Below are positions 49,428-64,000 of a stretch of 64,000 nt of DNA, in pieces. Origin of the DNA: Lepiota brunneoincarnata (taxonomy: Eukaryota > Basidiomycota > Agaricomycetes > Agaricales > Agaricaceae); assembly GCA_023014365.1 (NCBI GenBank), contig JAEBUN010000063.1, forward strand, positions 62,001 through 126,000, given 5' to 3'. Each line of letters begins with the position of its first letter. The stretch's first letter is position 1. The position numbers and the translations under genes were made by a program. The notes beneath the pieces were generated by a model. It was given only the letters and a program-made list of their open reading frames with translations. It had not been told where the DNA came from and made no database searches.

Positions 49428-50705
49428 ATGTTCGATGACCTACCTCCATTGCTTGAGCCTGCGGCCCCGGGTGGGGACATGTTTGGTGCTTTCCCTGGCT
49501 ACAGGAGGCCACAGGCACCAATGAATGGCCCATGGTCGCCCGTCTATGACCCACCCCCTCAATGGCTCCAGCAATCTCATCCATCCGCTCCGGCGTGGCT
49601 CAGCCCAGCCGGTTACCCAACGCACTCGCACTCCAATTCCTGGGCTGCTGGGTCAACCCCATTTCATCGCCCCACAGAGCTTAGCCCTTGGAGCCAACCC
49701 GTGGGGCCACCGCCTTGGTCGACAAACGACGCTACAAACCCAGCTGATTCCGCCTTCAGTCAACCCATCACGCAGGGTTTCTTCGGGGCCAACAAGGTCA
49801 ACAACCGGCCATGGGGCGGCGTAATTCGTACAACCTCAGCGCACGCCACACCTCATACTGCCGTGGATCCATGGTCGACACCAGCCCACCAACCCTGGGA
49901 TATAATGCGACCTAAGTCCGCTGGTCCGGACTGGGGAGGACGCGCCACCCCACATACACCGCAAATAGGCGTACCTGCACACCTCATGCCCGACATTTAT
50001 GATGAAAAGAACCTAGCCAGGAGACCGAGAGATTGGAGATCCAACTACAACCCCCGCGCTACTTTTCTTTCGTCCCTCCCGTCATTGCCTTCCATCCTCA
50101 AGGCCCAATCCGACGTTCACGGTATACCCATCTATTGCTGTACATCCGCAGCCGCTGACTTGACCACCAACACAGACTATTCCGACCCGATCAAACGACG
50201 TGTGAACCAACTTCTCCAGTATCATCCCTCTCGACCACCCATCTTCCATGATCTTCGCCTCGATCCCATCAATCCTTCTACTCCAATCCTACACGCGTCC
50301 TCGTCCCACAGTCGACATCCATTTAATCAAATCGACCTCGCACAGCTCGCAACGACGCCCCCTGCTATGACTCTCCGGCTCTTCCATCCCCGTTTGCCTT
50401 GGTATATAGACGTCCAACAAACCCAGAGCAACGGAATCACAGTCATTGACATTCTTACCCAAATTTACGCAGCCTTGCATACACAGATCATGCAACGGCA
50501 CTACTGGAACGAAGTGCTCACCACAGATGATCGTGGAGAGATCGCAAACGCATTCCATAAGCGAGTGCGGTTAACGGGCGGCGCGAAAGAGGTGGTTGAC
50601 CGCGGAGTCTTATGGATCGATTTTTTGGGTGAGGATCTCGTCTTTGAGGGTCTCGCAAGGACTAGAGGTGGGTTGTGGGAGATTAAAACAAGGAGAGGAT
50701 CATAA
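49428..50705 (+). CDS. DUF6699-like Pro/Trp-rich protein
   Basis: ATG at 49428, stop at 50705. A 54-nt in-frame intron is probable (50122-50175, GTATAC...ACACAG), which would restore QSDVHDYSDPIKRR and give 407 aa. The first half is Pro, Ser, His and Trp-rich (PPPQWLQQSHPSAPAW, HQPWD) and probably disordered. The second half has a compact domain: IHP-like FHDLRLDP, PPAMTLRLFHPRLPWYIDV, GITVIDILTQIYAALH, and a C-terminal DFLGEDLVFEGLARTRGGLW. This is the pattern of the DUF6699 family found in many agaricomycetes. Function is unknown. Confidence 0.78.
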   Translation: MFDDLPPLLEPAAPGGDMFGAFPGYRRPQAPMNGPWSPVYDPPPQWLQQSHPSAPAWLSPAGYPTHSHSNSWAAGSTPFHRPTELSPWSQPVGPPPWSTNDATNPADSAFSQPITQGFFGANKVNNRPWGGVIRTTSAHATPHTAVDPWSTPAHQPWDIMRPKSAGPDWGGRATPHTPQIGVPAHLMPDIYDEKNLARRPRDWRSNYNPRATFLSSLPSLPSILKAQSDVHGIPIYCCTSAAADLTTNTDYSDPIKRRVNQLLQYHPSRPPIFHDLRLDPINPSTPILHASSSHSRHPFNQIDLAQLATTPPAMTLRLFHPRLPWYIDVQQTQSNGITVIDILTQIYAALHTQIMQRHYWNEVLTTDDRGEIANAFHKRVRLTGGAKEVVDRGVLWIDFLGEDLVFEGLARTRGGLWEIKTRRGS

Positions 50706-51977: not shown

Positions 51978-51986
51978 GGTTAGGGG
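51978..51986 (+). repeat. first interstitial telomere-repeat remnant
   Basis: GGTTAGGGG marks the junction between unique DNA and the first retroelement fragment. It is likely what remains of an old chromosome end onto which the first element was added. Confidence 0.6.
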
Positions 51987-52256
51987 AGGGGGGACTATAA
52001 CACGAGTCGCGACGGTGGGGCGCAACGGGTTGTTGGGGTTTCCAACTACCCACCCATTTCGTCTTATAAAGACTCATCAGGCGCATGATATCTGTCAGAT
52101 ACCTGCTGTCCAATCGATTGTCGCCGATAGCAATCGATTGCGATTTTGATCGATAGATCAAAATCCGCGGAACGTATTTATAATCCCCCTGTTAATAACA
52201 GGTGAAAATAGGATTAAAAACTTAACTTCAAGTTTCAAACTTACTGCGCTGACTTA
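51987..52256 (-). mobile_element. terminal PLE family A, fragment A1 (3' end only)
   Basis: This carries the family A 3' terminus (the complement of ACACGAGTCGCGACGG) and its hammerhead, then about 170 bp shared with A2 and D (ATACCTGC.GTCCAATCGAT, GATCGATAGATCAAAATCCGC in D). It stops near GCGCTGACTTAG, where A2 and D continue. A 5'-truncated copy without coding sequence. Confidence 0.75.
52020..52084 (-). ncRNA. hammerhead ribozyme, type I (A1)
   Basis: On the minus strand: GCGC stem I strand, core CTGATGAG (52080-52073), stem II GTCTT-TAT-AAGAC, core GAAA (52060-52057), stem III TGGGT.../ACCCG (one G-U pair), U16.1 and U17, predicted cleavage, then the second GCGC strand. All invariant core bases are present. 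Confidence 0.88.
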
Positions 52257-52260
52257 GATG

Positions 52261-52294
52261 CGAAATATACGACTGAGCCGGTGGACTTGGGCGC
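52261..52294 (-). mobile_element. terminal PLE family B, 34-bp fragment B1 ending at the ribozyme cleavage site
   Basis: This matches the 3' end of B3 (AATATACGACTGAGCCGG, then ACTTGGGCGC). After GGGCGC, where B3 continues AACGGGG into the hammerhead, B1 goes directly into TTAGGGTAGG. That position is exactly the predicted self-cleavage site. Confidence 0.75.
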
Positions 52295-52304
52295 TTAGGG
52301 TAGG

Positions 52305-52873
52305 AGGAAATATACGACGGCGAGCGTGGACGGGCGCAACGGGGTCGTTAGTATTAAACGATCCCACCCGTTTCGTCTTATAAAGACTCGTCAGGCGCAC
52401 GATTAGTCCACAGACTCTTACCTGCCCGACCAATCGGAAGACTTACACTTATCTTACCGATCGGGAAGCACAGTGGCTGTGCATTCCGCGGAACACTTAA
52501 TAATTAAAGTTATAACTCACTTATTTCACCGAGGGAAAAGTCACGTGCCCAAGAAATCACGTGGAGAAAATCACGTGACCGTGGGAAGAAACATCGGGCG
52601 ACTGACTCCGATGGAATCGGACTTCTCACGGGGTCGGGCTTACCTCAGCACACAGGTCCGAGTGCCTCCCAAAAGACTTACAGATCCGCCCTAACCGGGG
52701 TTCTCACGCTACCGTAGGAAATCGCACATGACTCCGGGCCGACAGGTCCGGGTGAGTTATTAATAGGACATGACGTACCTATTAGCGCACACATACCAAA
52801 GTGGTTGATCTTCGCACGGTCCTAAAGAGGAAGCCCCTTCCTACGCCACCCCGAGCGAGCGCAAAATACGGGC
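52305..52873 (-). mobile_element. terminal PLE family B, non-coding copy B2
   Basis: The 3' terminus AGGAAATATACGAC (as + strand) is followed by a hammerhead, a CACGTG cluster (52541-52577) and blocks shared with B3: CCCACGGGGTCGG, CTTACCTCAGC, CACAGGTCCGAGTGCCTCCC, TAGGACATGACGTACC, GGAAGCCCCTTCCTACGCC. It ends in CGGTTAGGTTTCGGTTAGGG. No open reading frame. The 3' subterminal 30 bp differ from those of B1 and B3. Confidence 0.7.
52334..52398 (-). ncRNA. hammerhead ribozyme, type I (B2)
   Basis: Minus strand: GCGC, CTGACGAG (position 7 is free in the hammerhead consensus), stem II GTCTT-TAT-AAGAC, GAAA, stem III ACGGG.../CCCCGT-type pairing with a longer variable loop, GTT and cleavage, GCGC. 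Core fully conserved. Confidence 0.86.
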
Positions 52874-52894
52874 TCGGTTAGGTTTCGGTTAGGG
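52874..52894 (+). repeat. degenerate telomeric tract between B2 and A2
   Basis: CGGTTAGGTTTCGGTTAGGG separates two elements. The same string begins the tract to the right of B3 (56931). Confidence 0.65.
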
Positions 52895-52929
52895 AAGGGG
52901 GAGCTCAAATACACGAGTCGCGACGGAGG

Positions 52930-52994
52930 GCGCAACGGGTTGTTGGGGTTTCCAACTACCCACCCGTTTCGTCTTATAAAGACTCATCAGGCGC
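52930..52994 (-). ncRNA. hammerhead ribozyme, type I (A2)
   Basis: GCGC / CTGATGAG / GTCTT-TAT-AAGAC / GAAA / ACGGGT...ACCCGT / U17 / GCGC on the minus strand. The distal part of stem III, GTTGG/CCAAC, closes a small loop. Identical in core to A1. Confidence 0.9.
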
Positions 52995-53430
52995 ACGATA
53001 TCCGTCAGATACCTGCCGTCCAATCGATTGTCGCCGATAGCGATCGACTGCGATCGGTTACTTACGTAACGCGATCCGCGGAACGTGTATGTAATCCCCC
53101 CATCAAATGGGTGAAAATAGATTAAATACTTATCGTCGAGTTTCAAAACCGTCGCCGTGCTGACTTTGGCGCGCGCTTACGCCTGAGAAAAGTCACGTGA
53201 TCGTGCGACCGGTCACGTGCCATCGGGCTATGTTACCCGACGACGGAACAATCCGGGCCGGGGTAGGGCCGTCACGTGACAACGCAACAAGGTGCACTTT
53301 CGCACGGGGTCCAAGCGTGGGAGACTTGTGAAACCCGGCACCGGGGACATGAATACCCGGTGGCGGTGTACTTACCTTAGGTGGCTTTCCTTCCCACGGG
53401 TCTACTAGAGTACGCCCCGCCCGACCGGGA

Positions 53431-53462
53431 CGGTTAGGTCCGGGTTAGGTCAGGGTTAGGGG
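53431..53462 (+). repeat. telomere-like tract inside A2
   Basis: CGGTTAGGTCCGGGTTAGG followed by TCAGGGTTAGGGG. The equivalent tract occurs at the same place in D (62221-62252), so it belongs to the element and is not a junction. Confidence 0.7.
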
Positions 53463-53960
53463 TGAGCTTAGTATTAGTAAGCCGCACTCGTTGGGAAGGT
53501 AAGGTAGTACTTACCGCAAAGAACGTTCCGCACGGCATATAACCGGCGAAAGAGCGAGTTAACCGCCACCAGGGGGAGAACTTGCGTTGTTTACCGCTTG
53601 ACGCGAGAGCTACTTTCCGAGAGACTTAGGAAGGAGGCATAACCGCCCCCCCAGACGTGGTTCCGGGTTACGCCGCACCATCACACCCAAACCGATAAAA
53701 GGCCACCTATTTAAAAACCTGTTTTCGCGTGCTGCGATCGAAGCGCAGGTCGTGCAACCCCGAAGTCTTCTAACAACGGGGTCCCAGGAAGGTTACTCAA
53801 GATCAGCAAATATGGGCCGGCCGACATACGGGAATCACCCCGCAGAGGTCGGTACCCGAACGCCCAGGGATTTCCCCATTTGGGCGCCGACTTGGTACCA
53901 GTCGCCGCAGCTAGGTTGTGCGGACAACTACGGCTGGCATGGTATACCACGTAAGCCATA

Positions 53961-56246
53961 TCAATCGAAGTTCGCAATCGCGATCCACGGATCAGGCGTC
54001 TTCTCACGATGGTGTTCTACCGCCGGAGCGGAGGAAGAGGCCACGGGAGCTCGAGCTTCTGCGAAGAAGTCGGTTATTAACGCCTGGCGGTCGCGCCGCG
54101 CGAGGACGGAAGCACGCCAGATTGACGTGAGATCCATTATCTGTCGGGTTCTTTTCTTCGAAACCAACAGACGTCGACCAAAAAGACCGAGTTTATCTAG
54201 CCGCAAAAAGGGTCCTTGCCAACCCTCGTCTAAACACCAATCCTTTGCACACTCCGCCAAGTCAGCCTCGGCTTCAGCACGCGGGATCTTAGTAAAGAGT
54301 CGCATCAGCTCAAACGCCTTCTTGGGAAGGCCTAGTTTCACAAGGTTATACGGGAGCGGGACGTTACGCTGCCCCCGCATATCGAGTCGGGCGAAGGTAT
54401 TCATAGCCTGCGCCCACCCGGTCTTAATCGCGTCCTCAAGTTCTTGAGCGTTAAACATATCCCAGGAGACGTTGTATTCGCTTTTCAGCACAAGTACGCC
54501 ATTCGCTGGCGGTACGGACTCCCTAAGCCGTACATCCCAACGTACTCGGTAGTTATCACGGAGCCAAGCCGCGATCAACGTCGGAGGGTAGCCGCGCGCG
54601 ATGTAGATATCCGAAGCTTCTCTACACGCCATCACGTAATCGTTGAAACGCGATGAGAGCGCGGCGAGCCTCGATAGCTCCGAAACGAACGTGCCTTTCT
54701 TCACGTATAACGGATGGAAGCTAATCCAGGGTATGCGCTCGAAGTGGTTCATCGGTTTCCTATACGGCTTATGCTCAAGCCGACCGTTTGCCGTAAACAG
54801 CATCATGTCAAGGAATACCATAAATTGATCCGAGGATGACCACGTAATAGTACAGTTATCGAATCTAAGATTGTCGCTAAGTAAGCTCAACGCGTCCTTC
54901 TCGTTACACGCATAAACGAGTGCGAGGCAATCATCGATGTAGCGACCGTAGTACGCTACGTCAGGGGACCGGAGGGCTTCGCACTTCTCCTCGAAGTGTA
55001 CGCCGTAGAGGTTCGCTAGGTCGGGGCTTGACGCCACCCCCATTGCGAGCCCACGGGCCTGCCGGTAATATTTCCCTTGGAACTGTACTAATAAGTTGTC
55101 GTCCGCTGCCCGCATGCATTCCCGTAACAGCTGTACTTTAGCTGCTGCACGCGTTGCGTCGAAGTCGGTATCATCGACTTCTGGCTCGGCCTCGGCTAAC
55201 CAACGGGTATAGTACTCTTCGGCAAAGGAGTGTGCCTTTTGTACATCCACGTGAGGATAGAAGGCGACAACGTCGCCCGAGACAAAGTACAAACGCTTAA
55301 GCATACCGTTCTCGAATCGGAACTGCGGTAGCGACAACTTGCTCAATTTTATCGCCAGGTCTTTCGAACCATGAATAACGTACGGCGCCGATTGAATGAT
55401 CGGTTTGAGACTTTTAGAAACGTACTTCCCTGCAGGCCCTTGCGGTACGGAGTGGCACGGTAAAATCGGCCGGGCAGCCACCGGTGTCTTATGTATTTTT
55501 GGAATGACATAAAACGTCGGGATAGAGCTAGGCTCCACCGATAGCTGACTCCGAAAGAAGCGGGGAAGTTGCGATTGAATGGCGTAATCTTCCGACATTC
55601 TCGCGATGGACTTAATATGTTCGTTTTTATTATAAAGTATATTATACGCCGTAGTGGCGCTAACCGGTTCGTAATCTACACGGTTAGATAATAACGACAA
55701 AGCCTTATCAATGATCCAGGCACGCGGGGCAACTGCGCAACCAAGGTTCTTATCGGTCGCTACTACGACGAGTTCGTGGGACGTCAAGTAGTCGCGGAGT
55801 TTGGCCACCGGGGGAGCAAGCGCGTGCTGATAACGGTCCCCCACGTGTTCGTCTGTCGGCATATCAGAAACCATTTTATCAATGGCCCTACGACCGCACC
55901 AGACACCATACTCAAATACCCTGTCCAACTGGTGCATCGCGACGCGGTTAGGCTTCGGCGACCAGTAGTCCGGATCAAAGTCGTCTTCTGCATCTTCGGC
56001 ATCAGTGGCACGAAACCACGTGGACCAACGGAGACGATCGACGAAATCGTCCCAAGCGGAGTTAATTAATTCATCACGCCGCTTAGTCGGGATCATATAC
56101 TTAAGTCCCGCACTCAGATGCATCGCTATCTCACGCGGTATATCGCAGGAAATCATATGTATTGTACTACGGTAACGCATGGACTCTAGAACTACAACAG
56201 GAGTCCGTAGTACAATAAACCTGTACGCGTGTTGAGGGGTAACCGT
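53961..56246 (-). CDS. Penelope-like reverse transcriptase, 5'-truncated (A2)
   Basis: The RT core is almost complete. VIPKIHKTPVAARPILPCHS is the Penelope-specific PKIHK block, preceded by ATDKNLGCAV. VSGDVVAFYPHVDV is motif A, GLAMGVASSPDLANLYG motif B, YIDD motif C (54930-54941), and YVKKGTFVSELSRL and IARGYPP the thumb region. No GIY-YIG endonuclease follows; the protein ends SKKRTRQIMDLTSIWR and a short tail, with stop at 53961. The open frame extends to 56420, but beyond about 56246 it only translates telomere repeats and fragment A3. The N-terminus, present in the C element, is lost. Confidence 0.88.
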   Translation of the reverse strand, partial: TVTPQHAYRFIVLRTPVVVLESMRYRSTIHMISCDIPREIAMHLSAGLKYMIPTKRRDELINSAWDDFVDRLRWSTWFRATDAEDAEDDFDPDYWSPKPNRVAMHQLDRVFEYGVWCGRRAIDKMVSDMPTDEHVGDRYQHALAPPVAKLRDYLTSHELVVVATDKNLGCAVAPRAWIIDKALSLLSNRVDYEPVSATTAYNILYNKNEHIKSIARMSEDYAIQSQLPRFFRSQLSVEPSSIPTFYVIPKIHKTPVAARPILPCHSVPQGPAGKYVSKSLKPIIQSAPYVIHGSKDLAIKLSKLSLPQFRFENGMLKRLYFVSGDVVAFYPHVDVQKAHSFAEEYYTRWLAEAEPEVDDTDFDATRAAAKVQLLRECMRAADDNLLVQFQGKYYRQARGLAMGVASSPDLANLYGVHFEEKCEALRSPDVAYYGRYIDDCLALVYACNEKDALSLLSDNLRFDNCTITWSSSDQFMVFLDMMLFTANGRLEHKPYRKPMNHFERIPWISFHPLYVKKGTFVSELSRLAALSSRFNDYVMACREASDIYIARGYPPTLIAAWLRDNYRVRWDVRLRESVPPANGVLVLKSEYNVSWDMFNAQELEDAIKTGWAQAMNTFARLDMRGQRNVPLPYNLVKLGLPKKAFELMRLFTKIPRAEAEADLAECAKDWCLDEGWQGPFLRLDKLGLFGRRLLVSKKRTRQIMDLTSIWRASVLARRDRQALITDFFAEARAPVASSSAPAVEHHREKTPDPWIAIANFD

Positions 56247-56262
56247 CAGGGTTAGGGTTAGG
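56247..56262 (+). repeat. telomeric repeats capping A2
   Basis: AGGGTTAGGGTTAGG immediately follows the truncated RT frame of A2, as if telomerase healed the truncated element end. Confidence 0.75.
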
Positions 56263-56323
56263 AAAGGGGGCGTATAAACACGAGTCGCGACGGAGGGGCG
56301 CAACGGGTTGTTGGGGTTTCCAA
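56263..56323 (-). mobile_element. terminal PLE family A, 61-bp fragment A3
   Basis: This contains the A-family 3' terminus and the first third of the hammerhead (GCGCAACGGGTTGTTGGGG on the + strand). It breaks off in the stem III loop at 56323, then TTAGGG. The shortest A copy. Confidence 0.75.
56298..56323 (-). ncRNA. truncated hammerhead ribozyme (A3)
   Basis: Only the cleavage-site side (GCGC, U17, half of stem III) is kept; both catalytic core strands are absent, so it cannot self-cleave. Confidence 0.7.
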
Positions 56324-56350
56324 GGGTTAGGGGGGTTAGGGGGGTTGGGG
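56324..56350 (+). repeat. telomeric repeats between A3 and B3
   Basis: Three units with slipped G runs (GGGTTAGGGGGGTTAGGGG and so on), showing variable numbers of G per repeat. Confidence 0.75.
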
Positions 56351-56930
56351 AAGAAGGAAATATACGACTGAGCCGGTGGACTTGGGCGCAACGGGGTCGT
56401 AAGTTAGTACGATCACCCACCCGTTTCGTCCTTATATCGGACTCGTCAGGCGCACGATTAGTCCATCAGACTTACCATCCGTCCAATCGGAAAACGTTCC
56501 GGGCTTACCGATCGGGATTGCGACATTTGCTGTGCAATCCGTGGAACAGCTTACTTAACGAAGCTAAAAATAACTCACATTTTTCACCGAGGGAATATGC
56601 ACGTGACCACGTGATCACGCTGAGAAAAATCACGTGACCGTGGGAACTTACACGGGCGACTAACTCCGCGGAAGTCGGACTTCCCACGGGGTCGGGCTTA
56701 CCTCAGCGCACAGGTCCGAGTGCCTCCCAAAAGACTTACATCTCCGCCCTAACCGGGCATCAAATGCTACCGTAAGAAATTCACACGAGCATCCGGGCCG
56801 ACAGGCCCGGGTGAGTTATTCATAGGACATGACGTACCTATGAGCGCACACTTACCAAAACGGTTATATCTTCGCACGGTCCTAGAAAGGAAGCCCCTTC
56901 CTACGCCTTCGCCGAGTTGCGTAAAGGGCT
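56351..56930 (-). mobile_element. terminal PLE family B, non-coding copy B3
   Basis: Same order of blocks as B2: hammerhead, CACGTG cluster (56600-56636), CTTACCTCAGCGCACAGG, GGCCGACAGG, TAGGACATGACGTACCTA, AAGCCCCTTCCTACGCC, and GGGCTCGG at the right end, immediately before telomere repeats. The end point is the same as in B2. No ORF. Confidence 0.72.
56386..56453 (-). ncRNA. hammerhead ribozyme, type I (B3)
   Basis: CTGACGAG and GAAA cores and GCGC/GCGC stem I are kept, while stem II is GTCC...GGAC with a longer loop instead of GTCTT...AAGAC. The changes are compensatory, which supports a selected RNA structure. Confidence 0.87.
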
Positions 56931-56956
56931 CGGTTAGGTTTCGGTTAGGGTTAGGG
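56931..56956 (+). repeat. telomeric repeats between B3 and C
   Basis: CGGTTAGGTTTCGGTTAGGG then TTAGGG, directly before the left end of the C element. The GG of the last unit merges with the element start. Confidence 0.75.
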
Positions 56957-57056
56957 TTGAGAGGGTGAGTGGTTTCTCTGATGAGCTAAGCAAGCGCAAT
57001 CGGAGGGATGGTTAGTCCCTACCGGATTTCGTCTACTTATATAGACTCATCAGGCG
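56957..57056 (-). repeat. 3' pseudo-LTR of C
   Basis: 100 bp, identical to 61551-61650 by eye. Contains the hammerhead and the core-complementary octamer (ctgatgag on the + strand at 56978-56985). Confidence 0.85.
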
Positions 57057-57057
57057 C
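56994..57057 (-). ncRNA. hammerhead ribozyme, type I (C, 3' copy)
   Basis: Minus strand: AGCGC, CTGATGAG (57053-57046), stem II GTCTA-TATAAG-TAGAC, GAAA, stem III ATC...GAT with GG/CC and AGGGA/TCCCT extensions around one-base bulges, U17, then GCGCT. Stem II and III sequences differ from family A while pairing is kept. Confidence 0.88.
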
Positions 57058-57262
57058 TATTTGCTATTGCTTACCTTGTTCCATTGTCTTCCGTGGCTCC
57101 CACGAGAGACTTACGCTATAGGTTAGTATAAATAACCTACACCGAGTTTGACAAGACATGGGAAAGTATTCTAATTTTAACGTGACATTCTCTCACAGAG
57201 TGTCATACCTGGGAATATCCGGGCATAGAGCGGGGATAGAAGACAGGCTAAAAATACTTACT

Positions 57263-57347
57263 CACGTGATGTTACTCACGTGACGTGACATTACCTGCAC
57301 GTGATTATGCTATCACGTGACCTGCGATACTTACCACGCCCCACGTG
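57263..57347. promoter_or_regulatory. CACGTG cluster in the 3' region of C
   Basis: Five CACGTG palindromes (57263, 57277, 57298, 57314, 57342), four within TCACGTGA or near it. Comparable clusters lie at the same place in B2, A2, B3 and D. This is the recognition site of bHLH factors such as Cbf1 or Pho4; whether one binds here is unknown. Confidence 0.5.
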
Positions 57348-57354
57348 ACCCAGC

Positions 57355-57412
57355 CGGTTAGGGTTTGGGTTAGGGTTCGGTTAGGGTTCGGGTTAGGTCA
57401 GGTTAGGGTTTG
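57355..57412 (+). repeat. telomere-like tract inside C
   Basis: Seven TTAGGG-like units with T or C insertions (GGTTAGGGTTTGGGTTAGGG and so on). It lies in the 3' region of C at a place comparable to the tracts in A2 and D. Confidence 0.75.
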
Positions 57413-58140
57413 ACCTCAAGACGCGTGCGGTTAGCAAGCTGTCCAGTATCGGTGATAGGTGCAGGCAGTACGTACCGCCAAGATGCCATGTGGAACAACG
57501 CGGCCATCCCTTTAGGGGTGCAGGCCGCCCATCACTAGGTGAAATTAATTCCTGGGATGAAGATATTTCGTCTTACAGACGCCAAAGCCGTGAATATCGG
57601 AATCGGGAGCCCCCGAGCCAGACCGGCCTTTTACGGAAGTACTATGCGATCGGATCCTGCGAGGGTTTATCCTCGGCTACCGGGCTGGCATACGCGACAA
57701 CGGCCGAGCCGAGCTTTGCCCGTCCGACCTGTACGTACACGCATCCAGTCACCTCGCCAGAAGAACCGCCCTGCAGGGCGACAACAATTCCAACCGCAAG
57801 TGACTCGGACCCAAGGCGTTCGGTTTATAGAGTTTTTCTCGACTTCAAGGTCGTCCGCATAAATGCGTACCTAATTAGCCGCCAGGGGGAAGTTCTGTCC
57901 GAATCCCAAACGAAGCATGATTTACACGCTGATTGGGTTAAAATGCACCCCCGAAGGGGATGGGGGAGTTTTGATAACCAGCATCCGAGCGGCTGGGCGG
58001 CAGGGAGTGTTAAGTCCCTGGGATCCTACCAATCGTACGCGACACACGACTTACACGCAACGGGGTTGCTTACCGGTGGTCTCCCGCGGATATTCCAGAC
58101 ATTACTCTACGACTTCCGACGGAACACGAACCAGGTACTT
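57413..58140 (-). other. 3' untranslated region of the C element
   Basis: About 730 bp between the RT stop and the internal telomere-like tract. An antisense frame (57490-58149) is open but shows no motif. I consider this non-coding. Confidence 0.5.
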
Positions 58141-61100
58141 CTAGTCTGAATCGACATCCATATCTTCCGAACCGGATCCCGACGAGCCTTGCGAGTCGTC
58201 GTTTGGGTTGCTAATCCGGTCCGTTTTCTCAAGAACGAGTCGTTTCCAAAGAGACGACAAGTCAAAGAGATTCTGGGTTCGCTTCTTGCTAACCAGAACC
58301 CTGCGACCGAAAACAGTGGTCTTATCTAATCGGTAGTACGGGCCTTCGTTCCCGAAGCCCTGGAACTTGCGAGCCAGCCCCTCCATAGAGGGAGCGAGGC
58401 CGCTGTCCCCGGGTCGGTACTTGTAAGCGGGCACGCGACTAGTTTGAGGGAATAACTTGCCATCAACCGGTTCGTCATCCCCTTTGGACCACCACTCGAG
58501 AGCGGAGGACCATCCATGTTTAATTCGTTCTTCCAGAATTTGAGCGTTCATATAATCCCATGCGGGGTTGAACTCGCTTTTCAGCACCAGCACATCTGCC
58601 TGTGCCGTTTGGTACTCTCGTAACCTCGATTCCCAACGTGCTTTGTAGTTCTGTCTGAACCACGAGTCAACTACACCCGGCGGATAGCCCCTAGCAATAT
58701 AGATGCAAGCTATATCCTTGCACCCTAATAGGTATTCCTTTAGAGTGCTGCTGAGGGTTGCTATACGCGAGAGTTCACCAAGAAATGTACCTCGCTTAAT
58801 GTACATAGGATGATTACTAATCCACGGGATGCGCTCGAAATGGTTGAGTTGTTTCTTGTAGGCTTTATGCTGAAGCCTGCCTTCGGTATCGAAGTATAGT
58901 AACATGTCCAAGAAAGGCATTTGGCGTGCCGAACTCGACCATTCGATTGTACAGCCTGGATAATTGACTCTGAACGAGATATACTCCCTAGCGTGAGTTT
59001 CGGTAGGGGCGTACACCAACGCCAGAATATCGTCAATATACCTTCCATAGAAAGGCATACGTTCTGTAGTTAGTTCGAGGGCTGCTTCCTCGAATTCGAG
59101 ACCGTAGAGATTGGCAAGATCGGGGGATGAAGCTACCCCCATGGCCAGTCCACGTTCCTGTACATAGAACTTATTATCAAACTGCATAATCAATTCGTTG
59201 TCTGCAGCTTTAAGACATAAATCAAATAGCCTAGTCCTAAAGCTTTGCGCGTGAACGTCATCCGGATGGAGCGTTTCCAAACAGTACCGGGCGAAACGCC
59301 TAGACGCGATATCATGCGCGAGCTCGACGTTCACATGCGGATAGAAAGCGACTACGTCGCCGCTTACTATAAACAATTCACACGCAACGCCATCCACGAA
59401 GCGGAGGCGCGGCAACTGAAGATTACTTAATTTTATCGCCAGGTCCTTGGAACCATGGATAATATATGGCGCCAATTTAATAATTGGTTTAAGACACTTC
59501 GAGACAAACTTCCCGGCAGGTCCTTGTAACACGGAGTGACACGGACATATTGGTCTGGCTTTGACCGGAACCTTATGTATTTTCGGTATCGCGTAGAACC
59601 GTGGAGCAATAGGTTTATATTCCGTTACGTCATTCTCCTCAAGAAGGTGAAATTGAGACGTGAAGAACACGGGAAGTTGCGGAAAGCCACTAAGCCTGGC
59701 TAACCGGTTGATCTCAAGCATTTCCTTACGTTTTTCGGCCGTAATTAAAGCGGCCATCGCGTAGCTTATCTCCCTGTAGTCTACCGGATTATCCAGTAGC
59801 GCTTGAGTTTTAGACTTGATCCAGTCGGCGGAACAAACCGCGCAGCCGAGATTCTTATCGGTAATACTAACCACGAGGTCGTGAGACGTTAAGTATTCCC
59901 TAATACGTTTAACCGGGGGTGCGAAGTTCCTCAGGGGGAGACCCTGATCCTCCGGTCCATCCAAAGGCATATTAGACAACGTTTCATTAACGAAGCTTTC
60001 GCCACAACGGATTCCGTACTCTATAATGCTGCCCATGTCCCCACACGGCTTCCGGTGTGTTTTGGGGACGTAATAGTCTGGGTCGAAGTCTTCGTCCACG
60101 TCGTCATTTAGTTCAAAGAACAAACGCCATCTAAGGCGATCGACGAAGTCATCCCACGTGGACTTAATTAGGTCCTTATTATACTTAAGTGGGAGCAGGT
60201 ACTTAAGTCCTGCACTTATGTGGACGGCCAGTTCCTTAGGTATCACACAATCAATCTGATGGACAGTATTACGATATCTCATAGCCTCTAAAACTACTAC
60301 AGGCGTACGTAATACTATCCAATTGCGGGCTAAGGTGTAGGGTAAATCTAAGATGAAGTCAGGAAGGGTCGAGGGGTTCTCGTACCGGTATTCAGCAGGG
60401 AACCGCTGCCCTGAATAAGCATGTGGGGGCCTCATTGCCCCCGGTTGTTCTGACGCGCTCGCTGAGCGCGCCTCCTGGTTTGGACCCGGGGTCCAGGTCG
60501 GTCTCCCTTCTTGGGGGAGCCCTTGGTCCGGGTCGACTTCTTCTTCTTGTTCTGTAACGTCGGGATCATTAATAAAGGCTTTAATAGAGTTAAAAATAGA
60601 AAGACGTACGTCCTTCTTATTACCACCACTCTTCTTGCCGCCTTTGCCCGGCGTCACCTTCTTGGCCGCGGCGGTGACAGCCTTATCAATCATAGATTGA
60701 ATAGACTGTTTGGTGATGGCGTCTGAAACGTCTGCCATCACTACGTCCGCGACCTCCCGCTTTTTGGCCGCCTTGGCATGATCGGCGTGCCACCCGCTCT
60801 CGACCAGAGAGCGGGAGCGGTAAAGGTATACGAGGAAGTCGCGTTTGACTTCCTCGGCCTCCTTTTCCGCGGCGGGGTCGGTGACCCACCCTCTGATGAC
60901 GAGAACCCCTTCGACGTGACCAAAGGAAGGGCGCTTGCGCGCTGTGGTCACTTCCGTCGCACGTTTGTCGACGGCGGGGCCAAATTGTTCGTACAATTTG
61001 GCCGGGGATAACTCGGCATCAAGCCAGGTGACCTGAGCCTGCATACCCTCGATCAATTGATCGAGGGCATTACGTTGGTACGCGGCAAAGGTCACCGCCG

Positions 61101-61494
61101 GAGAGCTGGCGGTCTCCGGGTGGGCCGCCGCGAATTCCCTCATGTATTGAACAGAGGGGGGCTTCGCGGTGAGGGTGGCCGGCAGGGTTCCCGCCTCCTT
61201 GTGGGAGGTCAGCTTCAAGAGCTGAGCCTGGGAAGCAAGAAGCTTCCGGGACGCGGACGCGACAGCGTCCACGGCCCCAGTCAGGCAGAGGCGGTAATCC
61301 TGCGGAATTGACATAATCAATTCCAGGCGGTTGTTCGCCATGGAGACGGCGGACAACCGGGCGGAGTCGACAATGTCGACATCCGCCCCCTCTGCAGCGC
61401 CCAAAGCCCTGGAAATACCCAGGGTGACGGCGGCGGAGGGCGATGAGGCACGGGCACGAGCCGGCCTAGACGTGGAGGGAGTAGGGAGGGCCAT
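58141..61494 (-). CDS. Penelope-like reverse transcriptase with long N-terminal region (C element)
   Basis: 1,117 aa, ATG at 61494, stop at 58141, no interruption. Residues 1-about 385 form an Ala-rich, helical, partly basic region of unknown fold with a Lys-rich patch (KKVTPGKGGKKSGGNKK, about 280-300) likely to act in RNA binding or nuclear entry. Then ITDKNLGCAV, PKIHK (P637), motif A SGDVVAFYPHV with D713, motif B GLAMGVASSPDLANLYG, motif C YIDD (819-822), and a thumb region. The C-terminus FGRRVLVSKKRTQNLFDLSSL ends in a Ser/Asp-rich tail. There is no GIY-YIG endonuclease, so the enzyme should need free 3' ends such as telomeres. Confidence 0.93.
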   Translation of the reverse strand: MALPTPSTSRPARARASSPSAAVTLGISRALGAAEGADVDIVDSARLSAVSMANNRLELIMSIPQDYRLCLTGAVDAVASASRKLLASQAQLLKLTSHKEAGTLPATLTAKPPSVQYMREFAAAHPETASSPAVTFAAYQRNALDQLIEGMQAQVTWLDAELSPAKLYEQFGPAVDKRATEVTTARKRPSFGHVEGVLVIRGWVTDPAAEKEAEEVKRDFLVYLYRSRSLVESGWHADHAKAAKKREVADVVMADVSDAITKQSIQSMIDKAVTAAAKKVTPGKGGKKSGGNKKDVRLSIFNSIKAFINDPDVTEQEEEVDPDQGLPQEGRPTWTPGPNQEARSASASEQPGAMRPPHAYSGQRFPAEYRYENPSTLPDFILDLPYTLARNWIVLRTPVVVLEAMRYRNTVHQIDCVIPKELAVHISAGLKYLLPLKYNKDLIKSTWDDFVDRLRWRLFFELNDDVDEDFDPDYYVPKTHRKPCGDMGSIIEYGIRCGESFVNETLSNMPLDGPEDQGLPLRNFAPPVKRIREYLTSHDLVVSITDKNLGCAVCSADWIKSKTQALLDNPVDYREISYAMAALITAEKRKEMLEINRLARLSGFPQLPVFFTSQFHLLEENDVTEYKPIAPRFYAIPKIHKVPVKARPICPCHSVLQGPAGKFVSKCLKPIIKLAPYIIHGSKDLAIKLSNLQLPRLRFVDGVACELFIVSGDVVAFYPHVNVELAHDIASRRFARYCLETLHPDDVHAQSFRTRLFDLCLKAADNELIMQFDNKFYVQERGLAMGVASSPDLANLYGLEFEEAALELTTERMPFYGRYIDDILALVYAPTETHAREYISFRVNYPGCTIEWSSSARQMPFLDMLLYFDTEGRLQHKAYKKQLNHFERIPWISNHPMYIKRGTFLGELSRIATLSSTLKEYLLGCKDIACIYIARGYPPGVVDSWFRQNYKARWESRLREYQTAQADVLVLKSEFNPAWDYMNAQILEERIKHGWSSALEWWSKGDDEPVDGKLFPQTSRVPAYKYRPGDSGLAPSMEGLARKFQGFGNEGPYYRLDKTTVFGRRVLVSKKRTQNLFDLSSLWKRLVLEKTDRISNPNDDSQGSSGSGSEDMDVDSD

Positions 61495-61550
61495 GGTGAT
61501 GAGGAGGGGCTCGAGGAGGGGAGGATTTGAGTGCTAAGAATGTGTTTGGG

Positions 61551-61650
61551 TTGAGAGGGTGAGTGGTTTCTCTGATGAGCTAAGCAAGCGCAATCGGAGG
61601 GATGGTTAGTCCCTACCGGATTTCGTCTACTTATATAGACTCATCAGGCG
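61551..61650 (-). repeat. 5' pseudo-LTR of C
   Basis: Identical to the 3' copy up to CAGGCG, where it passes into GGGTTAGGG. The last base of the stem I strand (C of GCGC) is replaced by G from the telomeric tract. Confidence 0.85.
61588..61650 (-). ncRNA. hammerhead ribozyme, type I (C, 5' copy)
   Basis: Same core and stems II and III as at 56994-57057. Stem I is shortened by one pair at the telomere junction. Predicted cleavage lies between 61592 and 61591, so a cleaved transcript would have a leader of 97 nt before the ATG at 61494. Confidence 0.83.
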
Positions 61651-61690
61651 GGGTTAGGGTTAGGGGGTTTAGGGTTAGGGGGTTAGGGGA
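61651..61690 (+). repeat. telomeric repeats between C and D
   Basis: GGGTTAGGGTTAGGGGG then TTTAGGG and two further units. Forms the cap of C and the attachment site of D. Confidence 0.8.
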
Positions 61691-61721
61691 GGGGAGTCAA
61701 TACACGAGTCGCGACGGTGGG

Positions 61722-61787
61722 GCGCAACGGGCTGTTGGGGTTTCCAACTGCCCACCCGTTTCGTCTTATAAAAGACTCATCAGGCGC
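61722..61787 (-). ncRNA. hammerhead ribozyme, type I (D)
   Basis: CTGATGAG, stem II GTCTT...AAGAC with one more loop base, GAAA. Stem III has GGGC/GCCC where A2 has GGGT/ACCC: a paired T-A to C-G change. GCGC/GCGC stem I. Confidence 0.88.
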
Positions 61788-62220
61788 ACGATATCCGTCA
61801 GATACCTGCCGTCCAATCGATGGTCGCCGATAGCGATCGATTGCGATTTTGATCGATAGATCAAAATCCGCGGAACGTGTACGTAATCCCCCCAATAAAT
61901 GGGTGAAAATGAATCAAATACTTAGCGTCGAGTTTCGAAACCATCGCCGTGCTGACTTTAGCGCGCGCTTACGCCTGAGAAAAGTCACGTGATCGTGAGT
62001 ACGGTCACGTGTCATCGGGCTATGTTACCCGCCGCCCGAGGGCAAGTCACGGGGTAGGGCCGTCACGTGATCACGTGGCAAGCATCACTTTCGCACGGGG
62101 TCCATGCGTGAGAACATGTGAAACCCGGCACCGGCGACATGAATTGCCGGTGGCGGTGCACTTACCTTAGGTGGCTGTCCTTCCCACGGGTCTGCTAGAG
62201 TACGCCCCGCCCGACCGGGA

Positions 62221-62252
62221 CGGTTAGGTCCGGGTTAGGCCAGGGTTAGGGG
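62221..62252 (+). repeat. telomere-like tract inside D
   Basis: CGGTTAGGTCCGGGTTAGG then CCAGGGTTAGGGG; differs from the A2 tract by a single base. Confidence 0.7.
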
Positions 62253-62751
62253 TGAGCTTAGTATTAGTAAGCCGCACTCGTTGGGAAGGTAAGGTAGTAC
62301 TTACCGCAAGGAACGTTCCGCACGGCATATAACCGGCGAAAAAGCGAGTTAACCGCCACCAGGGAGGAGAACTTACGTTGTTTACCGCTTGACGCGATCG
62401 TTACTATTCGAGAGACTTAGGAAGGGGGCATAACCGCCCCCCCAGACGTGGTTCCGGGTTACGCCGCACCATCTCACCCAAACCGATAAAAGGCCACCTA
62501 TTTAAAAACCTGTTTTCGCGTGCTGCGATCGAAGCGCAGGTCGTGCAACCCCGAAGTCTTCAAACAACGAGGTCCCAGGAAGGTTACTCAAGATCAGCAA
62601 ATATGGGCCGGCCGACATACGGGAATCACCCCGCAGAGGTCGGTACCCGAACGCCCAGGGATTTCCCCATTCGGGCGCCGACTTGGTACCAGTCGCCGCA
62701 GCTAGGTTGTGCGGACAACTACGGCTGGCATGGTATACCACGTAAGCCATA

Positions 62752-64000
62752 TCAATCGAAGTTCGCAATCGCGATCCACGGATCAGGCGTTTTCTCACGA
62801 TGGTGTTCTACCGCCGGAGCGGAAGAAGAGGCCACGGGAGCTCGAGCTTCTGCGAAGAAGTCGGTTATAAGCGCCTGGCGGTCGCGCCGCGCGAGGACAG
62901 AAGCACGCCAGATTGACGTGAGATCCATTATCTGTCGGGTTCTTTTCTTCGAAACCAACAGACGTCGACCAAAAAGACCGAGTTTATCTAGCCGTAAGAA
63001 AGGTCCTTGCCAACCCTCCTCAGTACACCAATCCTTTGCACACTCCGCCAAGTCGGGCTCAGCTTCAGCACGCGGGATCTTAGTAAAGAGTCGCATCAGT
63101 TCGAACGCCTTCTTAGGAAGGCCTAGTTTCACTATGTCATACGGGAGCGGGACGTTACGCAGCCCCCGCATGTCCAGACGGGCGAAGGTGTTCATAGCCT
63201 GCGCCCACCCGGTCTTTATACTGTCCTCAAGTTCTTGAGCGTTAAACATATCCCAGGAGACGTTGTATTCGCTTTTCAGCACGAGTACGCCATTCGCTGG
63301 CGGCACGGACTCCTTAAGCCGTACATCCCAACGTACTCGGTAGTTCTCTCGCAGCCAAGCCGCGATCAACGTCGGAGGGTAGCCACGCGCTATGTAGATA
63401 TCCGAAGCTTCTCTACAAGCCATCACGTAATCGTCGAAACGCGATGAAAGCGCGGCAAGCCTCGATAGCTCCGACACAAAGGTGCCTTTCTTCACATAAA
63501 GTGGGTGGAAGCTAATCCAGGGTATGCGCTCGAAGTGGTTCATCGGCTTCCTGTACGCCTTATGGTGGAGGCGACCGTTTGCCGTAAACAGCATCATGTC
63601 CAGGAAGACCATATATTGATCCGAGGATGACCACGTAATGGTACAGTTATCGAACTTAAGATTGTCGCTAAGGAGCGCCAGGGCGTCCTTCTCGTGATAC
63701 GCATACACGAGTGCGAGACAATCGTCGATGTAGCGACCGTAGTACGCTACGTCAGGGGACCGGAGGGCGTCGCACTTCTCCTCGAAGTATACGCCGTAAA
63801 GGTTCGCGAGATCGGGGCTTGACGCCACACCCATCGCTAGCCCACGGGCCTGCCGGTAATATTTCCCTTGGAACTGTACCAATAAGTTGTCGTCCGCTGC
63901 CCGCATGCATTCCCGTAACAGCTGTACTTTAGCTGCTGCACGCGTTGCGTCGAAGTCGGTATCATCGACTTCTAACTCAGACTCGGCTAACCATGCGGTG
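62752..64000 (-). CDS. Penelope-like reverse transcriptase, partial at window edge (D)
   Basis: C-terminal 416 codons of an RT nearly identical to A2: GLAMGVASSPDLANLYG, YIDD (63721-63732), YVKKGTFVSELSRL, IARGYPP, SKKRTRQIMDL, stop at 62752. The frame stays open to the window edge (LAESELEVDDTDFDATR). Compared with A2, many third-position differences leave the protein unchanged, so both copies were under coding constraint. No endonuclease domain. Confidence 0.88.
   Translation of the reverse strand, partial: TAWLAESELEVDDTDFDATRAAAKVQLLRECMRAADDNLLVQFQGKYYRQARGLAMGVASSPDLANLYGVYFEEKCDALRSPDVAYYGRYIDDCLALVYAYHEKDALALLSDNLKFDNCTITWSSSDQYMVFLDMMLFTANGRLHHKAYRKPMNHFERIPWISFHPLYVKKGTFVSELSRLAALSSRFDDYVMACREASDIYIARGYPPTLIAAWLRENYRVRWDVRLKESVPPANGVLVLKSEYNVSWDMFNAQELEDSIKTGWAQAMNTFARLDMRGLRNVPLPYDIVKLGLPKKAFELMRLFTKIPRAEAEPDLAECAKDWCTEEGWQGPFLRLDKLGLFGRRLLVSKKRTRQIMDLTSIWRASVLARRDRQALITDFFAEARAPVASSSAPAVEHHREKTPDPWIAIANFD

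Follow-up and report, generated by a model that had tools for sequence, protein, structure and literature searches.

Endonuclease-deficient Penelope-like elements (PLEs) that associate with telomeres were reportedly described in 2007 by Gladyshev and Arkhipova, as Coprina in basidiomycetes and Athena in rotifers. Here we analyze an array of such elements at positions 51978–64000 of a 64,000-nucleotide stretch of DNA (the window) from the basidiomycete Lepiota brunneoincarnata, taken from contig JAEBUN010000063.1 (here C62), positions 62001–126000, of an assembly of 55,598,151 bases in 95 contigs that was searched throughout. The evidence supports an array of endonuclease-less telomeric PLEs, truncated at their 5′ ends and capped by telomeric repeats, and it is highly probable that this chromosome end has grown by the addition of such elements. 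Stacking of elements at chromosome ends is a known phenomenon; what goes beyond the standard picture is that the full-length elements are flanked by matching direct repeats resembling long terminal repeats (LTRs), which carry a predicted hammerhead ribozyme.

In published work, endonuclease-deficient PLEs lie at chromosome ends with the 3′ end facing inward and with 5′ truncations followed by telomeric repeats (PMC3846280), and PLEs have also been reported from the chromosome ends of Agaricus bisporus (PMC7473861), the species from which the nearest named relatives of the present proteins come. The Lepiota elements share with the Coprina/Athena kind a PLE reverse transcriptase (RT) lacking the GIY-YIG domain, the location, the inward 3′ end and the telomere-capped 5′ truncation, but differ from Athena in having LTR-like repeats (pLTRs); the pLTRs of Penelope are described as not associated with Athena (PMC3846280). 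They work like endonuclease-deficient telomeric PLEs and, at the 3′ end, like the Terminons of Adineta vaga (Arkhipova et al. 2017, as summarized in PMC6431247), which have a 3′ hammerhead adjoining complementary telomeric repeats, head-to-tail arrays and 5′ ends cut by telomere repeats. The first of these traits is found here by sequence; however, Terminons are giant units of up to 40 kb with accessory open reading frames (ORFs), whereas the present elements measure about 5.3 kb, have one ORF and a matching 5′ pLTR with another hammerhead, and do not form giant multi-ORF units. Canonical Penelope/Poseidon PLEs (PAc, PMC11167929) likewise have a pLTR-ORF-pLTR structure with a hammerhead and occur as tandem or partly tandem copies, but they encode a GIY-YIG endonuclease and use AT-rich targets, while no GIY-YIG match is found in the present elements. 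Plant LTR retrozymes (PMC4918200) are similar in having a hammerhead in both direct repeats, common solo repeats and a circle proposed as template; unlike the present elements, which encode a telomerase-like RT in an ORF of 1117–1200 amino acids, they lack coding capacity and are believed to depend on the machinery of Ty3-gypsy elements. The main text of the A. bisporus report (PMC7473861) does not contain the word hammerhead, and a literature search, outside which several of the most relevant papers lie, found no report of hammerheads or pLTRs in fungal PLEs.

C62 has a length of 137,701 bases and terminates in a perfect (TTAGGG)n tract, 11.7 kb beyond the right edge of the window. Self-comparison and mapping to copies elsewhere in the genome resolve the array into eight element pieces, all on the minus strand with their 3′ ends to the left, that is, inward, which confirms the number and orientation of copies proposed in the original prediction, as well as the terminal telomere expected to the right; the array does not lie far inside a chromosome. 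The claim that every junction carries TTAGGG-type repeats holds for six of the seven junctions between pieces and fails at 52262, where C62 has no tract and the homologous end of contig C43 has one that separates the B2 tail from the A fragment. Within the window, GGTTAGGGTTAG is matched 23 times with up to two mismatches, compared to 3.77 matches expected, and none of 100 shuffles reached 23. Beyond the features originally described, the elements have LTR-like repeats, hammerheads and internal tracts: tracts at 53428–53462, 57352–57413 and 62222–62252 are internal to elements and do not mark junctions, and the tracts in A elements are found again in other copies. We considered that the pieces originally labeled A2 and A3 could be one element split by the internal tract at 53.4 kb, and ruled this out, as the mapping also gives eight pieces. 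To the right of the window, toward the contig end, follow the rest of the A2 element, a full A1 element, a truncated A1 element and a solo A3 pLTR immediately beneath the telomere.

The same polarity is observed throughout the genome. A search with the A4 protein gave at least 55 RT matches on 19 contigs (54 of 254 candidates were scored, and one match is a scrap of 32 amino acids). Fifty of the 55 are nearest to the contig end predicted by their orientation, the other five all being on the 66-kb contig C83, where their distance from it reaches 57 kb; for the 33 matches on contigs that measure 250 kb or longer, this distance never exceeds 50 kb. A pattern for the hammerhead core gave 194 matches (57 forward and 137 reverse; 0 for the reversed control), and 99 of the first 100 are within about 46 kb of an end with the expected polarity.

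The RT frames contain the PKIHK and YIDD motifs noted originally, together with a DKG-like motif, as in a PLE-type, telomerase-related RT. The proposed lack of an endonuclease agrees with the absence of any GIY-YIG match at E values of 1 or less from the three proteins of the window (Pfam and NCBIfam); the domain (PF01541) is also absent from the precomputed Pfam annotation of all 120 relatives listed out of 128, collected by a word-based search that may miss endonuclease-bearing PLEs. Telomerase is the nearest fold to the predicted RT structure, and a sequence search of the PDB returned weak RT matches alone. Protein searches gave two relatives with the C protein, two with the alignment and 128 with residues 640–1120 of RT protein P0002. 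The proteins group with those of Agaricus and Leucoagaricus, in a comparison set that holds no named Coprina or Athena sequence, and C clusters with a protein of Agaricus, separately from A and B, so that at least three RT lineages share one end, as had been suggested. Viral contigs yielded no relatives by RT patterns and none by the exact hammerhead core. The host has a TERT gene on contig C2, with a telomerase RNA-binding domain (PF12009) detected at 60.9 bits and a second piece at 36.4 bits.

A full element, measured from tract to tract, consists of a 5′ pLTR, a 5′ untranslated region (UTR), a single ORF, a 3′ UTR and a 3′ pLTR. The pLTR is a direct repeat of about 580 bp that starts at its 5′ side with a degenerate, telomere-like CCTAACC tract and contains a predicted hammerhead with the cleavage site about 35–45 nt from the pLTR 3′ end. 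The junction of 5′ pLTR and 5′ UTR reads CCTAACCCTA(A/T)ACACA in A1, A2, A4 and A5, differs slightly in A3 and reads CAACCCAAACACA in the C element, the junction sequences being telomere-complementary. Elements were paired by picking hammerheads 4.5–4.9 kb apart, which gave 18 pairs, or 17 after one false pair was removed; within that range the spacing is 4594 to 4737 nt, with both hammerheads in the same orientation. The best local identity between the two pLTRs of an element is 98.7–100% in 16 of the 17 pairs and 95.9% in the C20 element (alignments of 107 to 628 bp, four of them no longer than 165 bp), while the pLTRs of A1, A2, A3 and A4 differ from each other by about 11–18%, and A5 is 97.5–99.1% like A1. 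In 16 of 17 pairs the two pLTRs are of one lineage, a number not reached in any of 100,000 permutations. CACGTG boxes cluster in pLTRs (e.g. at window positions 53190–53290) and are possibly promoter sites; the A1 pLTR has three, compared to a mean of 0.16 and a maximum of three in 2000 base shuffles, and 51.9 kb of host DNA has seven.

In RNA sense the motif reads GCGC-CUGANGA-helix II-GAAA-helix III-UU-GCGC, which provides the conserved core and three helices of a type-I hammerhead, for which we predict self-cleavage. In the six lineages folded by script, helix I is GCGC/GCGC, and the CUGANGA and GAAA elements and the UU preceding the cleavage site are kept in all six, while helix II (GUCUU/AAGAC, GUCC/GGAC or GUCUAU/GUAGAC) and distal helix III (GUUGG/CCAAC, UCGUU/AACGA, UCGUA/UACGA or AGGGA/UCCCU) vary on both sides. 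Hammerheads of PLEs are described as minimal in a review that also calls their role in PLEs and Terminons unknown (PMC7761336); helix III is longer in the present elements. For the PLE studied in vitro, cleavage is reported as not needed (PMC11167929).

To examine how copies are joined, we used 96 anchors, 78 at 3′ ends and 18 at 5′ pLTR junctions. Judged by eye, 75 of the 78 3′ ends carry at least one telomere-like repeat, the first of which may be the element's own end, and the three without a repeat are on C22, C37 and C53; an automatic tract length of 0 was obtained at several 3′-end anchors that stop short of the tract. Internal tracts measure up to 45 nt and terminal tracts 55–68 nt on four contigs, with 31 nt up to the first irregular repeat on C79. 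At the opposite side, 33 usable 5′ truncation points are dispersed along the element with little microhomology; 8 of the 78 could not be mapped, and of the 70 mapped, 37 were excluded owing to a non-canonical tract at the break (29), a position in the pLTR tract (4) or duplication (4). Of the 78 older 5′ ends, 12 lie in the pLTR tract and two more within 35 nt of it, after three of 17 automatic assignments were rejected by eye; we estimate that uniform breakage would place about one there. Both 3′ ends joined to telomere repeats and 5′ truncations capped by telomeric repeats are thus observed, and the 78 junctions and the dispersed truncations fit the alternation of element addition with telomere-repeat addition that the original prediction had put forward.

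These junctions suggest a cycle in which the 3′ end of the element RNA, CCUAACCC, pairs with the TTAGGG 3′ overhang and the RT copies from there, which would place the RNA 3′ end toward the centromere. Copying would halt anywhere, often at a telomere-like tract, the bare cDNA end would receive a TTAGGG cap, presumably from the telomerase of the host, given the TERT gene, and the next element would land on this cap. The two pLTRs of one element hardly differ, in contrast to those of different lineages, so that each RNA-templated cycle probably rebuilds the 5′ pLTR from a 3′ pLTR, apparently via RNA (strand transfer or a circle) or partly by recombination. We prefer LTR-like strand transfer or a tandem RNA, with hammerhead cleavage supplying a short shared RNA end; the strand-transfer route is a serious candidate, for which the odds are nevertheless somewhat below even. 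More tentatively, these could be LTR-like elements in which the telomere overhang takes the place of a tRNA primer and telomerase that of second-end integration, and in which a hammerhead-made RNA end lets the cDNA jump or circle to the 3′ pLTR, renewing the 5′ pLTR and its built-in telomere seed in each cycle. As a whole, we consider the proposed cycle the likely explanation of the data.

The idea that the arrays are passive subtelomeric repeats, spread by segmental exchange alone and made of elements no longer active, would account for the array segments that some ends have in common. It is very improbable considering that frames of 1197–1200 amino acids are open from ATG in 9 of 13 loci examined, that A1 bodies of equal score are present on several chromosome ends, that the many distinct 5′ truncation points each have their own tract, and that terminal elements are found immediately beneath the terminal telomere.

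Five copies, on C46, C83, C45, C20 and C22, exceed unit length: the 3′ UTR of a body of the same kind precedes the 5′ pLTR without a telomeric junction. They represent 5 of 17 elements with a judgeable upstream side (the 17 pairs plus the C22 copy, less that on C47); flags on pair 2 and on pairs 8, 11 and 16, which have a short upstream stretch, were not counted, pairs 8 and 11 being judged from neighboring pieces and pair 16 omitted. The extra stretch on C46 terminates in a telomeric tract and the 3′ end of another element. In the C22 copy (C22:699410–699433), a 118-nt GT..AG stretch extending from the 3′ UTR across the tract into the start of the pLTR is exactly missing; in the C20 copy (C20:766500–766525) the same stretch is missing with one extra G. 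The pattern of this loss has just these two matches genome-wide, both upstream of 5′ pLTRs, and both copies also have small indels nearby. Among the loci examined, 40 copies retain the stretch (113, 118 or 119 nt), all with TACTAAT inside. Where these loci include sufficient upstream DNA, none of the 44 3′ sides is spliced, and the 5′ sides comprise one spliced and three unspliced cases, C22 excluded. The exact loss, on the 5′ side alone, indicates that the template was probably a spliced RNA that extended from one body across a pLTR into the next ORF.

Longer copies could also arise if both hammerheads cut and the resulting RNA of 4.6–4.8 kb were ligated into a circle with one pLTR, around which an RT primed by the telomere at CCUAACCCUAA would travel more than once, giving rise to identical pLTR pairs as well as to solo pLTRs and longer copies. 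Solo repeats and over-length copies are outcomes predicted by the retrozyme model as outlined in PMC4918200, and each full element has the two hammerheads in the same orientation at the spacing given above. Moreover, in 88 of the 89 listed motifs the DNA extends 35–45 nt beyond the predicted cleavage site, the remaining one ending with the available sequence, and a pattern with a tolerance of 8 nt from CTAA gave 0 matches for A-type 5′ ends at that site, so that a linear RNA cleaved in full is not what usually serves as template, and a re-ligated circle could do so. Yet the C22 copy has lost the intron-like stretch at its 5′ pLTR and retains it at its 3′ pLTR, and one circle cannot be both spliced and unspliced; therefore, a single circle does not explain this copy. 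Furthermore, the extra segments are not specifically nearest to the 3′ end of their own element, and no two successive full-unit spacings occur among the first 100 of the 194 hammerheads. The over-length copies at first resembled proof of a circle and were downgraded on account of the discordant splicing and the lack of preference for the own 3′ end; a circular template is, in our estimation, rather unlikely.

The proposed cycle has to be weighed against several observations that count against it. Besides the absence of A-type 5′ ends from the cleavage site, where 5′ ends are not enriched for either A or B types, a single B2 tail starts exactly at the cleavage bond, on C62 and on the homologous C43 end; it is the only such event, probably one and the same on both contigs, and by our estimate the chance of one such hit is about 1–4%, according to which events are counted. 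C62 and C43 have the array base in common (window 51978–52480; C43:301950–302450), and C22 and C37 share one junction, implying that ends exchange DNA. When the extra segments of four over-length copies were compared with the 3′ end of their own element, C83 tied for best, C46 had one mismatch compared to none in others, C45 ranked sixth and C20 was not among the best nine; in addition, the C20 copy is an A1/A5 mosaic. Among the first 100 hammerhead cores, one lone copy (C5:159210) is internal to a 1.29-Mb contig, and one of 41 pLTR matches, beside an array at C21:27467–27845, is inverted relative to the other 40. The C5 copy belongs to a lone A1 pLTR piece (C5:158900–159400) with CCCTAACCCT at its 3′ end, 159 kb inside the contig, where it may mark the repair of a break or an end that fused long ago.

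The extra segments and the C20 mosaic make recombination a live rival: gene conversion or other DNA recombination among subtelomeres would produce both the pLTR identity and the longer copies from pLTRs that were unrelated at insertion. Exchange of subtelomeric DNA would also yield the extra segments, which counts further against the cycle, and, in line with it, array base and junction are shared between ends, A1/A5 mosaics occur and the 5′ segment of the C45 copy resembles other copies more closely than it does the 3′ end of its own element. However, adjacent hammerheads that do not form an element pair are of the same lineage in only 11 of 48 cases, compared to 16 of 17 for the two ends of one element, indicating that neighbors are not homogenized; the exact GT..AG loss points to spliced RNA; and a spliced 3′ pLTR partner was not found (none among the 44 copies examined, with both genome-wide matches on the 5′ side). 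We regard recombination as a fairly doubtful source of these features. A1/A5 mosaic patches are also seen in element bodies on C47 and at C53:185780–202368, which suggests recombination between lineages.

The remaining contrary points concern the ribozyme. The best hammerhead score in Rfam is 25.4 bits, below the threshold of 48.5; unconstrained single-sequence folds zip up or pair part of the core differently and do not give the textbook junction; and the fold z-scores of four lineages are −2.24, −0.20, −0.47 and −4.44. Together with the minimum-energy folds and with the finding that uncut RNA was the main substrate of a lizard PLE in vitro, as stated in PMC11167929, these values would fit a conserved sequence without ribozyme activity, kept near the RNA 3′ end because the RT recognizes it. 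This is unlikely in view of the six lineages described above, in which the core bases are kept while the helices change on both sides.

Read from its inner side, and on the minus strand unless stated otherwise, the array starts with a 5′-truncated A-type pLTR fragment (51978–52262) that has one TTAGGG repeat at its 3′ (left) end and a predicted type-I hammerhead at 52020–52084, a span from helix I to the GCGC past the cleavage site. It is followed by the 33-nt B2 tail (52262–52294), with its 5′ end exactly at the predicted cleavage site, and by a B1 solo pLTR (about 52303–52890; predicted hammerhead 52334–52398) ending at its own telomere-like tract, 52870–52892. The 5′-truncated A4 element (about 52893–56243) comprises the 3′ pLTR (predicted hammerhead 52930–52994), the 3′ UTR and the RT ORF cut at its 5′ end (coding region 53964–56243, the open frame continuing to 56462 via junction DNA); its 113-nt GT..AG stretch at 53402–53514, which holds the internal tract 53428–53462, matches the intron-like stretch absent from two copies elsewhere. 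Directly right of the A4 end starts a plus-strand stretch (56244–56262), and a 72-nt 3′ tail of an A1 element (56252–56323) is truncated at its 5′ end inside hammerhead helix III. A B2 solo pLTR (about 56352–56950; predicted hammerhead 56386–56453) again ends at its own telomere-like tract. The C element (about 56953–61651) has a 3′ pLTR (predicted hammerhead 56994–57057), the telomere-like internal tract at 57352–57413 (plus strand), an intact RT ORF of 1117 amino acids (58144–61494) without a GIY-YIG match and with a telomerase-like predicted fold, and a 5′ pLTR truncated in the hammerhead, of which 107 bp remain (61544–61651, hammerhead 61588–61650) with 99.07% identity to the 3′ copy. A plus-strand telomeric tract (61652–61690) separates C from the A2 element, which occupies about 61681–64000 in the window and continues to 66967, its second pLTR being 99.65% identical to the first; it includes a predicted hammerhead in the 3′ pLTR (61722–61787), a 113-nt GT..AG intron candidate across the internal tract (62192–62304) and the 3′ part of an RT ORF (62755–64000) of 1197 amino acids in full. 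Just inside the array, the window contains a gene for a DUF6699 (PF20415) protein at 49428–50705.

In this fungus, retroelement addition and telomere repeats are found on the same chromosome ends of a host that has a TERT gene. One genome offers 194 hammerhead cores, lineages with intact ORFs and chromosome ends that record the copies as a stack, from which direct predictions follow: RNA ends at the cleavage bond, a spliced leader RNA, and a circle or strand-transfer intermediate. Matching end repeats with a predicted self-cutting RNA make the role of that RNA testable. If the tentative scheme of LTR-like elements primed by the telomere is true, PLEs, LTR elements, retrozymes and telomerase would be joined in one working system, and the PLE hammerhead would gain its missing role.

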